Shown here: piece by piece, positions 7,795-17,771 of the stretch | How the letters are laid out: every line of letters starts with the position of its first letter | Numbering within the stretch: the stretch's first letter is position 1 | Virus record (IMG/VR): IMGVR_UViG_3300009788_000170 | Coordinates: 1 to 42,071 of that record | Source of the DNA: a virus | Strand: one strand, 5' to 3' | Length of the DNA stretch: 42,071 nucleotides | Program-made: the position numbers and the translations under genes | The notes under the pieces: model-generated | What the model was told of the DNA's origin: nothing | Seen by the model: the letters and a program-made list of their open reading frames with translations, nothing else | Database searches by the model: none

Positions 7795-8031
7795 ATGAAA
7801 TGGATAAACGTAAACGATAAACTTCCAGACAGAAACACGAGATACGCCAGTAAGTACGGTGTCTCGGTATTGGGATTCGATATAAGTGATCACAGGCCCG
7901 AGCCATTCGAAGTAATTTTTAATTATGGTAAAAAATGGTTTGAAGAATTATGCCACGGGCCGGCAGGCGAGGAATGCTGGTTAAGTGCGAGTGTTAGCCA
8001 TTGGATGGAATTGCCTAAAGGGGTAAAATGA
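7795..8031 (+). CDS. DUF551-domain protein
   Basis: A 78-residue protein matching the DUF551 pattern: WINVNDKLPD at residues 3-12, a central VSVLGFD strand and the closing SHWMELP at about 67-74. DUF551 proteins are common small phage accessory proteins of unknown function. The stop overlaps the next start by four bases. Confidence 0.8.
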   Translation: MKWINVNDKLPDRNTRYASKYGVSVLGFDISDHRPEPFEVIFNYGKKWFEELCHGPAGEECWLSASVSHWMELPKGVK

Positions 8032-8210
8032 ATGATCCAGTATGGCTTACTCTTAAAAACATGATATCCGGATCAATTCTACAAACATACGTTCAAGACA
8101 TTGGCGATTACTGGTTGTCAGTTTTTAATAATCCGGAAACCAAAACACTTGACACTTTTTCTAAGAACGAATGGGAAATCAAAATATTAATGAATGGGGT
8201 TAGAATATGA
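8028..8210 (+). CDS. Hypothetical protein
   Basis: A 60-residue soluble protein, mostly beta by composition, not recognised. It is flanked by four-base overlaps on both sides, which supports it as part of a coupled run of genes. Confidence 0.6.
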   Translation: MNDPVWLTLKNMISGSILQTYVQDIGDYWLSVFNNPETKTLDTFSKNEWEIKILMNGVRI

Positions 8211-8389
8211 GTGATGATAAGATTGACATGTATACAGCAATTGCTAATATTGTTAATGACATGGAAAACCATTTAAGATTAGTATTTATACGCGCAAAAC
8301 TTTGCAGGGCATACTATTTAGGACTTGAGAAAGAAGGTTTTTCTGAATCTCAGGCGCTTGAACTCTGCAAAGAATTTAAAATGGGATAA
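8207..8389 (+). CDS. Hypothetical helical protein
   Basis: A 60-residue, mostly helical protein. The C-terminal half (YLGLEKEGFSESQALELCKEF) looks like an amphipathic helix-turn-helix unit seen in small phage proteins. No function can be given. It starts in a four-base overlap. Confidence 0.6.
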   Translation: MSDDKIDMYTAIANIVNDMENHLRLVFIRAKLCRAYYLGLEKEGFSESQALELCKEFKMG

Positions 8390-8396
8390 AATAAAA

Positions 8397-8756
8397 ATGA
8401 CAAAATGCGAATGCGAGCCATTTCAAAAATGTCTTTGTGAAAAATCAGAAACAGAAATTGAAAAAGATATCATAGAATATCTTGAATCAATCACTCACTG
8501 TATGGCCTACAAAACATCCACGAAAGGTAGGAAAATAGGAAAACAGAGAGTAAAGGCGACAAAGAAAGAAAAGCCTGGGAAATCTGATATTGTTTGTTGT
8601 TACGATGGACTATACATCGCAATTGAAGTAAAATCAAAAGATGGGACACAGCAAAAAAACCAAGAAGATTTTGAGAAAGAAGTGACTGCGGCCGGCGGTG
8701 AATATTGGTTAGTTAGATCACTTGAAGAAGTAATTATAAAATTAGAGGGCAAATGA
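8397..8756 (+). CDS. VRR-NUC nuclease (PD-(D/E)XK fold)
   Basis: The start is taken at ATG 8397, just after the preceding stop, giving 119 residues. An in-frame upstream start at 8325 would overlap the previous gene widely. The C-terminal 60 residues are a VRR-NUC core: GKSDIV with Asp64, the IEVKSKDG strand with Glu77 and Lys79, and the QEDFEKEVTAAGGEYWLVRS helix-strand unit. The family cleaves branched or single-stranded DNA structures in replication and recombination. The N-terminus adds a Cys-rich stretch (CECEPFQKCLC), possibly metal-binding. Likely role: processing of recombination intermediates or phage DNA ends. Confidence 0.85.
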   Translation: MTKCECEPFQKCLCEKSETEIEKDIIEYLESITHCMAYKTSTKGRKIGKQRVKATKKEKPGKSDIVCCYDGLYIAIEVKSKDGTQQKNQEDFEKEVTAAGGEYWLVRSLEEVIIKLEGK

Positions 8757-8965
8757 AACTGAATCCAAAGCAAATAATTAAAATAGACAAAATAGAAACA
8801 GAAGCTTGGAAATATTTAGGGAACATGATCGATCAATTACACAAAGTTGGATTTATTGTAGGGGGAGATTATAAAAAAATAGAACGTAAATTTAATGGAT
8901 GGTTGCAGTCGTATGGCATGAAACGACAACCGCTTGACAAGCTTGGTAAAACTGGTAAAAAATAA
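8753..8965 (+). CDS. Hypothetical basic protein
   Basis: A 70-residue lysine-rich helical protein starting in a four-base overlap with the nuclease gene. The tight coupling suggests a functional partner, possibly a DNA-binding accessory, but no domain was recognised. Confidence 0.6.
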   Translation: MKLNPKQIIKIDKIETEAWKYLGNMIDQLHKVGFIVGGDYKKIERKFNGWLQSYGMKRQPLDKLGKTGKK

Positions 8966-12549: not shown

Positions 12550-12711
12550 ATGAAAACAATGGCAGAGTACAAAAGAGATGAGCGGGAACGAAAAAGAAAA
12601 TCTGGTAAAAAACGGGTAGGGTTTTGGATCGATCCGGTTAATGAAGCCAGGATAAAAAGCTACGTTTATCAACTTGAGGAAGATGTCAGAATAATAAAAA
12701 GTAACCATTGA
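12550..12711 (+). CDS. Likely ribbon-helix-helix DNA-binding protein (53 aa)
   Basis: A 53-residue protein: a basic N-terminal arm (EYKRDERERKRKSGKKR), then a short beta strand VGFWIDP and a helix pair (VNEARIKSYVYQLEEDVR). This is the pattern of small phage ribbon-helix-helix regulators, where the strand reads the major groove as a dimer. An alternative start is three codons in. The 18-bp palindrome begins at the last base of its stop codon, which suggests autoregulation or control of the Ibr operon. Confidence 0.6.
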   Translation: MKTMAEYKRDERERKRKSGKKRVGFWIDPVNEARIKSYVYQLEEDVRIIKSNH

Positions 12712-12728
12712 TATTGACCGGTCAATAT
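12711..12728. promoter_or_regulatory. 18-bp perfect palindrome, candidate operator
   Basis: ATATTGACC is followed directly by its reverse complement GGTCAATAT. It contains a -35-like TTGACC and is followed at once by an AT-rich TATAAA (12729-12734). It lies between two putative DNA-binding protein genes and the operon carrying the methyltransferase-like and Ibr-like genes, so it is a good candidate operator for that operon. Confidence 0.65.
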
Positions 12729-12769
12729 TATAAAGTTAAGACAGATTAAACAATTAACAAGGGGATAAA

Positions 12770-12934
12770 ATGGAACTAACAGTTGCCCAATACAAAACAT
12801 TAAAATCGTTAGAACGTGCTTTGGACGAATGCACCAAAGCAAATCTTGAAATAAAAATAATTAATGGTGAAATAAAATATGAAGAAGCAGAAAAAAAATT
12901 ACCATTCAGCACTTACGCAACCGCTGAAAATTGA
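12770..12934 (+). CDS. Small protein (54 aa), first gene of the Ibr-type operon
   Basis: A 54-residue, mostly helical protein starting after a strong AAGGGG box. It overlaps the methyltransferase-like gene by 56 bases. Helices at about 6-25 and 30-45 are charged. Not recognised; it may simply couple translation to the downstream gene. Confidence 0.5.
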   Translation: MELTVAQYKTLKSLERALDECTKANLEIKIINGEIKYEEAEKKLPFSTYATAEN

Positions 12935-13475
12935 AAAAGAATTATCATATTATGGCAACAATGGAAATTTTGTAATCAAGAGAGATATCTGCAAAGGATT
13001 ACCGGAAGAATTCAGGCTTTGCGATGTAATTTATTCGGAGCCATCTTGGCTGATGGGTTATGAAAAATTTCTAAGTAGGGCTAGCACGGAAGGAAGTGAT
13101 TATAAAAAATATATTGAATCAATTTCAGGCATTATAAAGAAAACAAATAAACCGATTTGGATAGTAACAGGCCGACATGCTTTGAAACATTTCCCTATCC
13201 CCCATCATTCTCAAGAAATAAAACTATTCCACCATGATGCCTTCTTGCTAGGGTGGAATGATAGATCATTAGATTGGACAGATTTTGGTTCAATCAAAAC
13301 AACTGATAACCTATTGGAAATTTTATCTGATACTTATGACAGGGTTGGTGATTTTTGTTGCGGGTACGGGAACACGGCCAGAGCGTTTTTAAATAAAGGG
13401 AAAGAATTTGTGATGTCAGATATCAACGGAAAATGTGTTTATTATATAGCAAAGGAGTTGATGGGATATGCATGA
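12879..13475 (+). CDS. Methyltransferase-like protein with atypical motif IV
   Basis: A 198-residue protein with the motif order of beta-class amino-methyltransferases: motif IV region CDVIYSEPSW at 48-57 comes before the SAM-binding motif I DFCCGYGNTARAF at 158-170, which is followed by an acidic strand end VMSD (Asp181). A normal motif IV is D/N/S-PP-Y/W/F; here SEPSW replaces it, so catalytic ability is uncertain. The protein is short, and between motifs IV and I there is room only for a small target-recognition part. It overlaps the next gene by eight bases. Inferred role: DNA or nucleotide modification together with the Ibr-like proteins, or a SAM-binding regulatory subunit. Confidence 0.65.
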   Translation: MKKQKKNYHSALTQPLKIEKELSYYGNNGNFVIKRDICKGLPEEFRLCDVIYSEPSWLMGYEKFLSRASTEGSDYKKYIESISGIIKKTNKPIWIVTGRHALKHFPIPHHSQEIKLFHHDAFLLGWNDRSLDWTDFGSIKTTDNLLEILSDTYDRVGDFCCGYGNTARAFLNKGKEFVMSDINGKCVYYIAKELMGYA

Positions 13476-14208
13476 TATCCAGTTTATAAAAGACACTTCG
13501 CAAGCAGAAATAGATAAACTTGATGGGGATGTTTTGGTTTTGTACCGTGAAGGATACAAATTACCAAAAATAGAAAGTGCTGAATACATGGAATTTGAAA
13601 CATTCAGAAGTAAATACATTGATATTCATGCAAAAGTAATTGTTTTAATTGGATTGATAAGAATGATTACACCGTCAAATAGATGTGACACTGTACACGA
13701 ATACCTAACAACATTAACTCCTAATATCAGAAAAATAAGTATTGATATTGAACCTTTTCTTGGAGAGCCTTGGCGGTTAATGTGGCATTATCTCTATACA
13801 AAAAATAATCATTTTAATGTCCCTCATAGCTATGCCTTAGAAACAGAATGGCAAAAATGGTTTTACCGGGATATTAATGATTCCAGAATATCCGGTAATA
13901 ATATTAAAATGTTTATACAGAATACTTATTCTGACTTGGACCAATTTAATTCAGAATTTGGTTTTTATGATTGTGCTTCAGAAGAATGGTATTCCGAGGC
14001 AAAAGACCATGTTTTCGCAAAATACAATACCCCGAAGCAATTAATTAACAATCTTCTTAAAGAGTGCAATAAAAAGTTTGATATAAAATTCAGCTTTGAA
14101 TCATACAGGGAAAGTAAAAAGTTTGAATTACCAGATCTAAAAGTATACCGATTTGTTACTGAGGAAGCTAAAAGAAGAATGTCAATTTATAACTCTGTGA
14201 TATCATGA
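13468..14208 (+). CDS. Unrecognised 246-residue protein in the Ibr-type operon
   Basis: A 246-residue soluble protein with no signal or membrane segment. The first 120 residues alternate strands and helices (DVLVLYREGYKLP, HAKVIVLIGLIRM, NIRKISIDIEPF), which could be a Rossmann-like fold. A tryptophan- and tyrosine-rich middle follows (GEPWRLMWHYLY at about 95-106, EWQKWFYRDI near 127-136). The C-terminal half is charged and helical. No known catalytic signature is seen. It overlaps both neighbours (8 and 4 bases), so it is made together with the methyltransferase-like and IbrA-like proteins and is the best candidate for a new component. Confidence 0.7.
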   Translation: MHDIQFIKDTSQAEIDKLDGDVLVLYREGYKLPKIESAEYMEFETFRSKYIDIHAKVIVLIGLIRMITPSNRCDTVHEYLTTLTPNIRKISIDIEPFLGEPWRLMWHYLYTKNNHFNVPHSYALETEWQKWFYRDINDSRISGNNIKMFIQNTYSDLDQFNSEFGFYDCASEEWYSEAKDHVFAKYNTPKQLINNLLKECNKKFDIKFSFESYRESKKFELPDLKVYRFVTEEAKRRMSIYNSVIS

Positions 14209-15281
14209 AAATATACAATCCAGAAATAAATGTTCTTGATGCTACCAGAGAAAGAATAAGCTATTTATTTGACGAATTTGAAACAATCAACGTTTCTATT
14301 TCATCCGGTAAAGATAGCACTGTTCTTTATTATTTATGCCTCCAGGAAGCAAAAAAACGGAATAGAAAAATAATAGCTTTCTTTCAGGATCAAGAAGCCG
14401 AGTATGCTGCATCAATTGAGATCATGAAAATACAAATGGACCACCCAAATGTTATTCCGGCGTGGTACCAAGTTCCTATTTATCTAACTAACTCAACAAG
14501 CTATACAGATTATTTTTTATATGCATGGGGCAAGGGGGATAAATGGATGAGGGAAAAGGACCCGGTTGCAGTTAAAGAAATTGACGAAGATTACCCACCT
14601 AGATTCTATGAGTTTTTTAAATGGTATGAGCAAAAGAATCCAGATGCTGCTTACTTAGTAGGTCTTAGAGCAGATGAAGGAGTAATTAGATTCAGAGCTG
14701 TTACTAAATATGTTGGATGGAACGGTATTAGATGGTCAACAGAAACAGATAATATTAAAAAATTCTACCCTATTTATGATTGGGGATTCGCTGACATTTG
14801 GAAGTTTATTTATGATTATAATATTCCATATAACAAGATTTATGATTTGATGTTCATGGACAATTATAGTTTTTATAATAAAATGCGAGTGTCGAACCTG
14901 ATTCATGAAAAATCATACAAATGTTTGATTGATCTTCCAAAGTATGAACCAGAGACTTACAATAAACTTTCAAAAAGAATCGGGGGTATTCCAACAGCTC
15001 AAAGATACGCAAGTGAAAAACTTGTTTTTAACAACAAGAAATTACCGAGACATTATAAGACATGGAAAGATTTTAGAGATTTTCTTTTGTTGAATATTCC
15101 GGTTGAAGAACACCGGGAAAAGTTTATTGCCAGGTTTGAGAAACAAGAAAACTCAGAAAGAATTTATCAAGCACAAGTAGGGCAGCTTTTAATTAATGAT
15201 TTTGAAAACAGCCGTGCTTTCAATACGAAAAAAACCCAGTACGATAAAAAGGTAAAAGAAAAATGGATGAACATACTGTAG
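14205..15281 (+). CDS. IbrA-like PP-loop (PAPS-reductase family) enzyme, copy 1
   Basis: A 358-residue ATP-pyrophosphatase-fold protein. The PP-loop SSGKDST lies at 33-39 (the second position is S instead of the usual G), the family acidic motif QDQEAEY at 61-67, GLRADEG at 153-159, and YPIYDWGFADIW at 188-199 followed by NKIYDLM. PAPS-reductase-family enzymes bind a nucleotide and activate sulfur or nucleic-acid substrates; the IbrA branch, paired with a ParB-fold IbrB, is known from E. coli prophages as an activator of prophage genes. The clear QPYGDDQ-type DUF3440 segment of copy 2 is not evident here. The gene overlaps the ParB-fold gene by 19 bases. Confidence 0.85.
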   Translation: MKIYNPEINVLDATRERISYLFDEFETINVSISSGKDSTVLYYLCLQEAKKRNRKIIAFFQDQEAEYAASIEIMKIQMDHPNVIPAWYQVPIYLTNSTSYTDYFLYAWGKGDKWMREKDPVAVKEIDEDYPPRFYEFFKWYEQKNPDAAYLVGLRADEGVIRFRAVTKYVGWNGIRWSTETDNIKKFYPIYDWGFADIWKFIYDYNIPYNKIYDLMFMDNYSFYNKMRVSNLIHEKSYKCLIDLPKYEPETYNKLSKRIGGIPTAQRYASEKLVFNNKKLPRHYKTWKDFRDFLLLNIPVEEHREKFIARFEKQENSERIYQAQVGQLLINDFENSRAFNTKKTQYDKKVKEKWMNIL

Positions 15282-15790
15282 AACAAAAAGCAACTGAAGT
15301 TATTGTGGTGCCATTGGAAAAGATGTTTTCGAATGATTATAATCCAAATCGGATGCCAGATACAGAAATGGATCTATTAAAACAATGCATTGTAAAGTAT
15401 GGTTTTTTATTCCCAATACTTGTTACTTGGGTAGAAGAAAAACAAATGTATCGTATTATTGATGGATTCCATAGATATGAAACACTTAAACGAATTGGAG
15501 CAAAAGAGGCTTCAATTATCGATATGAAACTGCCATATCATGACGCGGTTCAATTGACTGTATTAATGAACCGGATTAAAGGATTGCATCAAGTGGAAAT
15601 GATGAGCGATTTAGTTTTGAAGCTTGAGAATTTAGGGCTTGAAGACACTGAAATATGTGATAACCTAGGCATGGAAAGTGAGGAGTACATGAGACTCAAG
15701 CAACAATTGGGAATAGCCCATGCCTTTAAAAACCACGAATACAACTCGTCATGGGCTATTGACAAGGAAACATACGGATTGAAAAAATGA
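15263..15790 (+). CDS. IbrB-like ParB N-terminal-domain protein, copy 1
   Basis: A 175-residue protein. The ParB N-terminal (sulfiredoxin-like) fold is shown by YNPNRMPDTEMDLLKQCI (26-43), the strand YGFLFPILV, and the nucleotide-binding signature IIDGFHR at 65-71. A helical C-terminal part (about 105-160) resembles the HTH that follows in IbrB and ParB proteins (DLVLKLENLGLEDTEICDNLGM). The IbrB arginine-rich box seen in copy 2 is replaced by MNRIKGLHQ, so this copy is diverged. It probably binds nucleotide and DNA and partners IbrA copy 1, whose gene it overlaps. Confidence 0.85.
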   Translation: MDEHTVEQKATEVIVVPLEKMFSNDYNPNRMPDTEMDLLKQCIVKYGFLFPILVTWVEEKQMYRIIDGFHRYETLKRIGAKEASIIDMKLPYHDAVQLTVLMNRIKGLHQVEMMSDLVLKLENLGLEDTEICDNLGMESEEYMRLKQQLGIAHAFKNHEYNSSWAIDKETYGLKK

Positions 15791-16308
15791 ACTTTAAAAA
15801 CGAACCGGTTTCAAATGTGCAATGGGTTCATTCATCAACTATTGCAAAGAACTCATACAACCCAAATCATGTCGCAAAACCCGAACTTGAATTATTAAGA
15901 AGGTCAATTGAAATCAATGGTTTTACACAGCCGATAGTTTGCTGGAATGATTCAGGTCGACTTGAAATAGTTGATGGATTCCATAGGTCATTGGTAGGCC
16001 AAAATACAGAATCTATCAGGAATAGACTCAATGGATTTTTACCAGTAGTCATACTGAATAAAGAAAACACCGGCAAGAATGACAGAATAGCCGCCACGAT
16101 AAGGCACAACAGGGCAAGAGGTAAACACAATATGTCAGCAATGTCTGATATCATTATCGAACTTAAAAGACGCAATTGGAGAACTTCAAGAATCTGCAAA
16201 GAGCTTGGAACTGACGAAGATGAGGTTTTAAGATTGATGCAGATTAATGGATTAATTGAAATGTTTTCTGATAATGATTACTCTGAAGCGTGGGAATATG
16301 AAATATAA
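15787..16308 (+). CDS. IbrB-like ParB N-terminal-domain protein, copy 2
   Basis: A 173-residue protein, paralogous to the preceding one. YNPNHVAKPELELLRRSI at 24-41, strand NGFTQPIVCW, IVDGFHR at 61-67, and the typical IbrB box TIRHNRARGKH at 104-114, followed by helices with a probable HTH (MSDIIIELKRRNWRTSRICKELG). It starts in a four-base overlap with copy 1, giving a tandem pair. It is probably the cognate partner of the DUF3440-containing IbrA copy 2 downstream. Confidence 0.88.
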   Translation: MNFKNEPVSNVQWVHSSTIAKNSYNPNHVAKPELELLRRSIEINGFTQPIVCWNDSGRLEIVDGFHRSLVGQNTESIRNRLNGFLPVVILNKENTGKNDRIAATIRHNRARGKHNMSAMSDIIIELKRRNWRTSRICKELGTDEDEVLRLMQINGLIEMFSDNDYSEAWEYEI

Positions 16309-16699
16309 ACCATATTGGATACGAGAAGATTATTTAAACGGGATGTTTAATACGACAACAAAAAATGATGAGTTATCTATCAAAAAAGTTGAACGACTTT
16401 TTAAAAGCGAAAAACGCACAATAAAGGCGATGTATTCAGTAATACAAAAATGGCATCACTCAACAGGACATAACCTTACCAACAGGTCGATAAATAGAAT
16501 TGCTTGGCTTGGACAAGCGGCTTGCTGCTATTCGTTAAAAGTCCCGGACTATATTACTAAAAAAGCTTGGTGGAATCTCCCGAAAGAAATACGAAACAGA
16601 GCGGATAAAAACGCCAAAGATTTAATAGAATCTTATGAAAACAAAACTAAAAATCAATGTATTGGAAGCCGCAAAGCAGAGAATCAACTTTGTTTTTAA
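16298..16699 (+). CDS. Unrecognised 133-residue protein between IbrB-like and IbrA-like genes
   Basis: The start at ATG 16298 overlaps the IbrB-like stop by 11 bases. The 133-residue product is basic and helical: a first part YKPYWIREDYLNGMFN, a middle RTIKAMYSVIQKWHHSTG, and a cysteine- and tryptophan-rich C-terminal part (IAWLGQAACCYSLKVPDYI, KKAWWNLPKEIRNRAD). No domain is recognised. Its end overlaps the second IbrA-like gene by 65 bases, an unusually long overlap that implies fixed co-expression. It may be an adaptor of the Ibr complex. Confidence 0.7.
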   Translation: MKYKPYWIREDYLNGMFNTTTKNDELSIKKVERLFKSEKRTIKAMYSVIQKWHHSTGHNLTNRSINRIAWLGQAACCYSLKVPDYITKKAWWNLPKEIRNRADKNAKDLIESYENKTKNQCIGSRKAENQLCF

Positions 16700-17771
16700 T
16701 ACATTTGAAAAGATTTATCTTTGTTTTTCAGGTGGCAAGGATTCGACTGTTATGTTTCATTTAGCTGCAGCCGAAGCAATCAAAAAAAAAGTCAAGATTG
16801 ATGTTTTGTTTATTGATTTAGAAGCTCAATATAAGGCCACGATTGATCATGTAAAAGCAATGTTTGGATTATACAAAGATCATATCAATATCCATTGGGT
16901 TTGCATTCCATTAACTCTGAGAAATTCGCTGTCAGTATTTCACCCTAGTTGGATATGCTGGGAACATGGAAGAGAGTGGGTGCGGGAAAAACCAAATAAT
17001 GACAGTTTCGTGTTTTGCTATCCATCAATGGAGTTTGAAGAGTTTACTTATTGTTTCGGTAAGTGGTTTGCAAAAGATAAATTAACCGCTTGCCTGGTTG
17101 GAATCAGAACAGACGAAAGTTTAAATCGTGAAATGGCGTTGCAGTCAATTAAAGAAAGTTACAATCAATGGACAACAAAAATTCATAAGAATGTTTTTAA
17201 CTGTTATCCTATTTATGACTGGAAAGTTTCTGATTTATGGGTTTATACGCGGAAAGAAAACAAGATGCACAATAAAATTTATGATCTGATGCAGCAAGCG
17301 GGTGTCCCGTTAAAAGATCAAAGGATATGCCAGCCATATGGGGATGACCAGAAAAAAGGGTTGTGGCTTTATCATCTACTTGAGCCTGAGACATGGGACA
17401 AAGTTTTAAATCGGGTGTCAGGAGTAGGTGGTCACGAACATACCAAAGAAAGCAAAATAAACAAACCGGATAAATTGTCATGGAAAAAATATTGTGAGCT
17501 TTTAATTAATTCAATGCCAGCAACTACAAAAAATCACTATATCGAACGAATCACAAAATATTGTAAATCATGGGAGAATCGAGGGTATGGAGATGGGATA
17601 TGTAATATTGTTCCGGATAACATCGAGCGCAGAAACATAGCACCATCATGGAAAGCTATTTCAAAAGCGATATTGAAAAATGATTATTGGTTTAGATCTA
17701 TTAACATGACTCAACCGTTTAGCAAAACATACGGGGAGTATTTAAAAATAAGAGATGGAATCATAAACTGA
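16635..17771 (+). CDS. IbrA-like PP-loop enzyme with DUF3440 region, copy 2
   Basis: A 378-residue protein. The canonical PP-loop SGGKDS lies at 32-37, DLEAQY at 61-66, GIRTDES at 156-162, YPIYDWKVSDLW at 191-202, then NKIYDLM and the DUF3440-type segment QRICQPYGDDQKKGLW at 229-244 with the following EPETWDKVLNRVSG. This is a full-length IbrA-type phosphoadenosine-phosphosulfate-reductase-like protein. It is closer to the described family than copy 1 and has the intact PP-loop. Family members act with ParB-fold IbrB; the chemistry they perform is not settled. It is the last gene of the operon; the terminase genes follow after about 90 bases. Confidence 0.9.
   Translation: MKTKLKINVLEAAKQRINFVFNTFEKIYLCFSGGKDSTVMFHLAAAEAIKKKVKIDVLFIDLEAQYKATIDHVKAMFGLYKDHINIHWVCIPLTLRNSLSVFHPSWICWEHGREWVREKPNNDSFVFCYPSMEFEEFTYCFGKWFAKDKLTACLVGIRTDESLNREMALQSIKESYNQWTTKIHKNVFNCYPIYDWKVSDLWVYTRKENKMHNKIYDLMQQAGVPLKDQRICQPYGDDQKKGLWLYHLLEPETWDKVLNRVSGVGGHEHTKESKINKPDKLSWKKYCELLINSMPATTKNHYIERITKYCKSWENRGYGDGICNIVPDNIERRNIAPSWKAISKAILKNDYWFRSINMTQPFSKTYGEYLKIRDGIIN

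Follow-up and report, generated by a model that had tools for sequence, protein, structure and literature searches.

What is the role of a phage cassette in which two copies of the IbrA/IbrB gene pair are stacked in one operon? This question is raised by the IMG/VR viral record IMGVR_UViG_3300009788_000170, a complete record of 42,071 bases that was analysed as a whole (hereafter "the window"). The record is that of a tailed phage, in which genes for terminase, portal, capsid, tape measure and a DnaD-like helicase loader are found; the operon is flanked by the early region and the terminase genes, with all its genes on the + strand. The cassette consists of two IbrA/IbrB-type modules: module 1 (MT, U246, PPL1 and ParB1) and module 2 (ParB2, U133 and PPL2). 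In other phages the family of module 1 is repeatedly found in operons of SNF2 helicases or of type IV-B CRISPR-Cas systems, a linkage not foreseen in an earlier note made from the DNA letters of this region. The linkage suggests that this copy belongs to an ATP-driven machine acting on nucleic acids, rather than to sulfur metabolism. The seven genes of the two modules are as follows.

12879..13475, + strand: MT, 198 amino acids (aa), permuted amino-methyltransferase-like protein with an intact motif I region (DFCCGYG) and a degenerate motif IV (EPSW)
13468..14208, + strand: U246, 246 aa, alpha/beta companion of PPL1, resembling in its predicted structure the lobes of the Swi2/Snf2 helicases of superfamily 2 (SF2)
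14205..15281, + strand: PPL1, 358 aa, predicted IbrA-like PP-loop ATP pyrophosphatase (PF01507 and DUF3440, SGKDS motif, no conserved cysteine)
15263..15790, + strand: ParB1, 175 aa, IbrB-like ParB/sulfiredoxin-fold protein (ParB_N, DGFHRYE motif)
15787..16308, + strand: ParB2, 173 aa, IbrB/YbdM-type ParB-fold protein (DGFHR and RHNRARGxH motifs)
16298..16699, + strand, ATG start: U133, 133 aa, helical companion of ParB2 and PPL2 with a conserved core WLGQAACC
16635..17771, + strand: PPL2, 378 aa, predicted IbrA/YbdN-type PP-loop ATP pyrophosphatase (PF01507 and DUF3440, SGGKDS motif, no conserved cysteine)

Both PP-loop proteins exhibit matches above the Pfam cut-offs to PF01507 (4e-11 for PPL1, 1e-14 for PPL2) and DUF3440 (6e-8 and 6e-21), and they have diverged to 34% identity. 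The two ParB-fold proteins match each other with 69 bits; against ParB_N, ParB1 scores 28.9 bits, over the cut-off, and ParB2 22.6 bits, just under the cut-off of 26.3. E. coli YbdN is matched by PPL2 (P0008) with 319 bits and by PPL1 with 112 bits, and YbdM by ParB2 (P0006) with 192 bits and by ParB1 with 88 bits. The two diverged IbrA/IbrB-type pairs proposed in the earlier note are thus recovered: judged by sequence similarity, PPL2/ParB2 are clear relatives of YbdN/YbdM and PPL1/ParB1 is a distant branch of IbrA/IbrB. Module 2 shares with E. coli IbrA/IbrB (YbdN/YbdM) the RHNRARGxH motif and the gene pairing. Unlike in E. coli, where U133 is absent beside ybdNM, the cassette stacks two modules, of which module 1 is distant and accompanied by U246 and MT. 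Plasmid partition was rejected as a role of the ParB-fold proteins: both carry DGFHR instead of the GERR motif, and the cassette contains no ParA gene.

Do these genes belong together? Searches of viral contigs with each cassette protein yielded two largely separate sets of loci. For a comparison anchored on PPL1 and PPL2, the 80 best viral loci of each were deduplicated and only those with 2.5 kb or more of flank on either side were kept, leaving 47 PPL1 and 44 PPL2 flanked loci, the PPL2 set serving as the control for background phage neighbours. Similarity, and not chance, decided which loci were drawn; the contigs are for the most part fragments of metagenomes, and the p-values of this comparison take no account of how the loci are related. 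A ParB-fold gene lies beside the IbrA gene in 47/47 PPL1 and 44/44 PPL2 loci. U246 occurs in 23/47 PPL1 versus 0/44 PPL2 loci (p 9e-9) and MT in 10/47 versus 0/44 (p 0.001). U133 is an optional member of module 2, present in 15/44 PPL2 versus 2/47 PPL1 loci (p 3e-4). Counted from the companions, U133 adjoins an IbrA-type gene in all 53 distinct copies on viral contigs, always of PPL2 type, and U246 does so in 27 of 28 copies, only of PPL1 type, the exception being at a contig end. The neighbourhood search suggested in the earlier note therefore finds the gene set co-conserved, so that the lack of co-conservation named there as refuting did not arise, and the membership is just as proposed: copy 1 goes with MT and U246, copy 2 with U133. 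The cassette genes are shown to be real by their co-conservation elsewhere, except for a 54-aa ORF at the head of the operon. The same cassette, with 100% protein identity, is found in a 58-kb twin contig (IMGVR_UViG_3300028610_000686). A 114-kb phage (locus L051) contains all seven conserved parts of both modules in another gene order, and locus L055 a partial double module, U246-PPL1-ParB1-PPL2.

Are the PP-loop proteins sulfur enzymes? In the alignments of PPL1 (15 rows) and PPL2 (21 rows), SG(G)KDS is invariant, and so are dozens of other residues. No cysteine is conserved in either alignment, nor in that of the type IV-B protein CysH (8 rows). Since neither PP-loop family conserves a cysteine, PAPS reduction and DndC-type phosphorothioation are both argued against, and the sulfur reading offered in the earlier note loses weight. 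Automatic annotation and the PF01507 matches would make the two proteins PAPS reductases of the auxiliary metabolic kind, serving to boost sulfate assimilation, as phage papers commonly have it, the ParB neighbour being accidental. This explanation was discarded as the leading one for want of the conserved C-terminal catalytic cysteine; NCBIfam scores far under the cysH cut-offs and the ParB-fold partner in 91/91 flanked loci also stand against it, and we regard it as extremely improbable. DndC-like DNA phosphorothioation, or another sulfur modification, would agree with the shared PP-loop superfamily, with weak profile matches to DndC (1.3e-7) and BrxP (2.4e-6) and with the membership of DndB in the ParB superfamily (PMC11662687). 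DndC, however, requires Fe-S cysteines (C280, PMC11662687), and the absence of a conserved cysteine ruled out this explanation as the leading one as well. No DndA, DndD or DndE profile match was obtained among the eight cassette proteins, PADLOC not having been applied elsewhere in the window for these, and we consider phosphorothioation very unlikely. The cassette does resemble the Dnd/Ssp and type 4 BREX systems (DndC/BrxP, DndB, DndH/PglZ) in its combination of a PAPS-reductase fold, a ParB/sulfiredoxin fold, active or inactive Swi2/Snf2 proteins and a methyltransferase (PMC12839542, PMC11662687). It differs from them in lacking conserved cysteines, a cysteine desulfurase, DndD and PglZ, in being phage-borne and in its stand-alone U246. 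In a relative at locus L009 (5693-8062), the PPL1 gene is split by an apparent intein directly after the PP-loop motif (SSGKDS).

What, then, does module 1 act with? An SNF2 helicase is encoded within 4.5 kb in 29/47 PPL1 versus 1/44 PPL2 loci (p 2e-10), and type IV-B Csf effector genes, with CysH, occur in 11/47 versus 0/44 (p 5e-4). Csf and SNF2 genes are never found in one locus (Fisher 2e-6, the loci being related). At least four changes of the Csf state are needed on well-supported branches of the PPL1 tree, one of them within the clade of the window's own protein. PADLOC profiles identify type IV Cas7/Csf2, Cas5/Csf3, Cas11 or Cas8/Csf1 proteins around a ParB-(MT)-U246-PPL1 set with CysH. 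The genes of CysH-ParB-MT-MT-U246-PPL1 overlap in locus L172, as do those of ParB1, CysH and Csf3 in L048. Compared with type IV-B CRISPR-Cas with CysH, the cassette has PP-loop enzymes that resemble CysH in the PP motif and in conserving no cysteine but fall in a longer, DUF3440-bearing group, CysH being a separate, shorter protein. Relatives of module 1 are embedded in phage type IV-B operons at about ten distinct loci; by contrast, type IV Cas7 is absent from the window and its twin as far as profiles go. Three plasmid type IV-B loci that were examined contain neither IbrA/IbrB nor U246.

Two of the phage type IV operons, L048 (3465-9700; IMGVR_UViG_3300031227_000023) and L058 (3-6421; IMGVR_UViG_3300025030_001984), contain IbrA/IbrB, U246, one MT and CysH, and exhibit the Cas11 and Cas7 profiles on one fused protein. 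In two cultured phages of Flavobacterium, FPSV-F7 and FCL-2, the gene directly 5' of IbrB-IbrA encodes an SNF2-family helicase (L067, 3203-4426; L068, 3240-4451); the deposits name hypothetical proteins.

U246 exhibits no significant relative by sequence in Pfam, PHROG or the PDB, tblastn of the phage collection with it gave no match, and neither U246 nor U133 fell into a recognised family in profile searches. Its predicted structure (pLDDT 89.3) finds its best Foldseek matches among Swi2/Snf2 and other SF2 helicases (E-value 6.5e-4 in the PDB and 1.2e-4 in BFVD, TM-scores 0.36-0.52). A profile comparison with hhalign did not separate SNF2 (P 0.011) from the controls (0.025 and 0.037), so that the link to Snf2 is drawn from the Foldseek matches. 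No Walker motifs, including Walker A, were seen in the U246 alignment. These features make an inactive Snf2-like fold a lead for U246, taken from the structural model. PglZ and DndH are described as having inactive Snf2-like domains (PMC12839542), and such a protein in a modification locus therefore has precedent. An acetyltransferase-like gene, GNAT-like by eye, lies directly 5' of U246 in L008 (5846-6235) and L009 (4487-4909).

The second companion of PPL1, MT, was described in the earlier note as methyltransferase-like. An active DNA N6/N4 methyltransferase was ruled out because motif IV is EPSW and not (D/N/S)PP(Y/W/F), a substitution that weakens the idea of a catalytically competent enzyme. 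Relatives with E-x-S/A/P-W/F at this motif adjoin PPL1 in L006, L007, L042, L044, L045, L051, L155, L171 and L172, and a second MT with DPPW adjoins the degenerate one in L044, L045 and L155. In L051 a canonical N4/N6 DNA methyltransferase (7807-8778; PF01555, 1e-31) lies between PPL1 and ParB1, the same operon also having a degenerate MT.

The companion of module 2, U133, is predicted to be all-helical (pLDDT 90.8), and a structure search gave no fold match in the PDB. The PPL2 gene start overlaps the U133 gene by 65 nt (16635-16699), and overlaps of about 1-110 nt are found in most relatives. U133 loci occur in both gene orders, with a single ParB2-U133 fusion (L061). Three of the 53 copies are without a ParB gene within 4 kb, two being at contig ends and the third being in L051, where ParB2 is farther off. 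A diverged U133 hidden in the gap between ParB2 and PPL2 of the loci without U133 was ruled out, as the genes mostly abut there. A family of about 125 aa (GSRGI..Y.LE.G..YEV..SW...RYFC) replaces U133 directly 5' of PPL2, in PPL2-ParB2 gene order, in L118 (1280-1645), L120 (4621-5049), L140 (1132-1611) and L146 (4228-4605). Cultured phages with U133 infect Pseudomonas, Microcystis, Pseudoalteromonas and Mycobacterium; Microcystis phage Mwe-JY13, Pseudoalteromonas phage XCL1123 and Mycobacterium phage Gaia are carriers of PPL2-ParB2-U133. Of the 346 genomes searched in the phylum to which a Saprospiraceae metagenome-assembled genome belongs, none has U246 and one has U133; given this near absence from that one phylum, both families appear to be phage-borne.

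Could the product be a small molecule rather than a modified nucleic acid? Enzymes using CTP and ATP, as well as kinases, are known with the ParB/sulfiredoxin fold. The solved structures nearest to ParB1 by sequence are the free serine kinase SerK (8e-5) and SbnI (4e-4); ParB1 differs from both in being shorter, in lying in a phage operon and in having a constant PP-loop partner, and a serine kinase role would be assigned to it by likeness only. An ectoine-synthase-like cupin (PF06339) lies between IbrA and ParB, or is fused to ParB (Mycobacterium phage Gaia), at L065 (3030-3422), L059 (4828-5205) and L066 (2607-3506). These additions occur in a subset of the module 2 (ParB2-type) relatives: three loci, with one ParB fusion. 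Counter-defence or warfare between mobile elements might then proceed with no mark on nucleic acid: IbrA adenylation and IbrB kinase activity, with the cupin in some loci, would yield a small, nucleotide-like metabolite by which host immunity is inhibited or a signal is sent. The likeness of ParB1 to free-serine kinases, the three cupin loci and the phage-borne companions speak for such a metabolite; the SNF2 and Csf partners suggest a nucleic-acid substrate instead, and we consider the proposal unlikely.

The reading that we favour, and to which we would give an even chance of being correct, is that the two stacked IbrA/IbrB modules put an ATP-dependent, non-sulfur mark on nucleic acid and are aimed by exchangeable units. 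The analysis shows which genes make up the sets, that these are co-conserved, that motifs are lost and that one module is linked to SNF2 or Csf genes; the chemistry, the target and the benefit are inferred as follows. PP-loop enzymes of the N type that have no catalytic cysteine adenylate their substrate and release pyrophosphate. IbrA, as a cysteine-free PP-loop ATP pyrophosphatase, would activate its substrate by adenylation, and IbrB, as its ParB/sulfiredoxin-fold partner, would bind DNA and probably phosphorylate the activated group or transfer it. The target would be DNA or RNA, given that the units that can be exchanged comprise a DNA motor, a type IV effector complex and proteins resembling DNA methyltransferases. 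The unit that targets module 1 would be exchangeable: an SNF2 helicase in certain phages, elsewhere a type IV-B Csf complex that has a CysH of its own, and in the window phage probably the inactive Snf2-like U246 together with MT, whose methyltransferase fold is catalytically altered. As a YbdN/YbdM-type pair, module 2 would have U133 as a helical adaptor. The likely benefit would be that phage or host DNA is protected or re-programmed, which might amount to escape from restriction, to altered transcription as in the known E. coli IbrAB phenotype, or to an attack on rivals. For type IV-B CysH, such adenylation has been argued, and the PP motif and the lack of a conserved cysteine have led to the proposal of an AMPylation-type modification of nucleic acid bound in the Csf ribonucleoprotein complex (PMC8175902). 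The nearness of ParB1 to serine kinases, the cupins at ParB2-type genes, the double modules of L051 and L055 and the ParB2-U133 fusion are also counted in favour of this marking.

Several points weigh against this marking of nucleic acid. None of these proteins has, to our knowledge, a biochemical result behind it. The exclusivity of SNF2 and Csf partly follows the PPL1 tree, with too few independent pairs for significance. Neither Csf2 nor SNF2 was detected with profiles in the window phage or the twin contig, so the linkage tells of the family elsewhere and not necessarily of the window phage. IbrA/IbrB genes are present on just 3 of 27 Csf2-anchored viral contigs and are therefore an add-on to type IV-B systems, not a core part. 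Finally, as far as the accounts citing Sandt et al. 2002 go (PMC10434257, PMC6008420), the only IbrAB phenotype found is that the eib genes of E. coli prophages are activated.

Might the cassette then be a regulator? The eib phenotype, the homology of PPL2/ParB2 to YbdN/YbdM and the strict pairing with ParB-fold genes would all agree with IbrA/IbrB being a transcription activator or anti-repressor that tunes genes of the phage or of a co-resident prophage, in which the PP-loop protein would be a nucleotide sensor and the ParB-fold protein would attach to promoters. So would a palindrome at the head of the operon, where two further features are found.

12711..12728, no strand: 18-bp perfect palindrome ATATTGACCGGTCAATAT, 5' of the operon, candidate operator
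12770..12934, + strand: 54-aa open reading frame (ORF), function unassigned, an ORF call that is candidate coding only

With this ORF, eight ORFs stand in a row from 12770 to 17771, every one overlapping its successor; the palindrome and the eight overlapping + strand genes listed in the earlier note are all in place. The 54-aa ORF has no homologue in the viral contig searches except in the near-identical twin contig, which leaves its coding status uncertain. The palindrome is unique within the window even when 3 mismatches are allowed. About 0.16 such 18-bp palindromes are expected by chance somewhere in 42 kb (42071 x 4^-9), so that only its position is suggestive. A sigma-70-like pair (12708-12736) overlaps it with a score not above chance, and promoter and terminator scans gave nothing useful. 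The intact PP-loop catalytic motif and the many other invariant residues fit an enzyme pathway better than a regulatory pair, and SNF2, Csf, methyltransferase and ectoine-synthase cupin companions are typical of DNA processing or chemistry. Gene activation could, moreover, itself result from DNA modification. A purely regulatory pair thus appears to us possible but rather improbable.

A bolder version of the nucleic-acid marking would make IbrA/IbrB and U246, with CysH where present, the catalytic arm of a programmable modification machine of phages, RNA-guided by Csf, carried along DNA by SNF2, or built in the window phage of two protein-targeted arms (U246/MT and U133). We put this forward as a long shot; if true, it would explain the role of the type IV-B systems that have no array.

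IbrA/IbrB pairs in phages are already known and have often been noted. In the part of the open literature that was searched, no account was found of U133 or U246, of two modules stacked in one operon, or of IbrA/IbrB lying in operons with SNF2 or type IV-B genes; a study of a glacial virome mentions, with no analysis, one contig that has both IbrA/B and a CRISPR-Cas system (PMC4490671). Two protein families that appear to be phage-borne, U133 and U246, have defined partners and structure models of high confidence. Phage "PAPS reductase" genes are routinely counted as sulfur metabolism; for the IbrA family, the lack of conserved cysteines and the ever-present ParB partner speak against this. 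The SNF2 and type IV-B linkage of one IbrA branch offers a testable entry to the chemistry of IbrA/IbrB and to the purpose of the array-less type IV-B systems with CysH.

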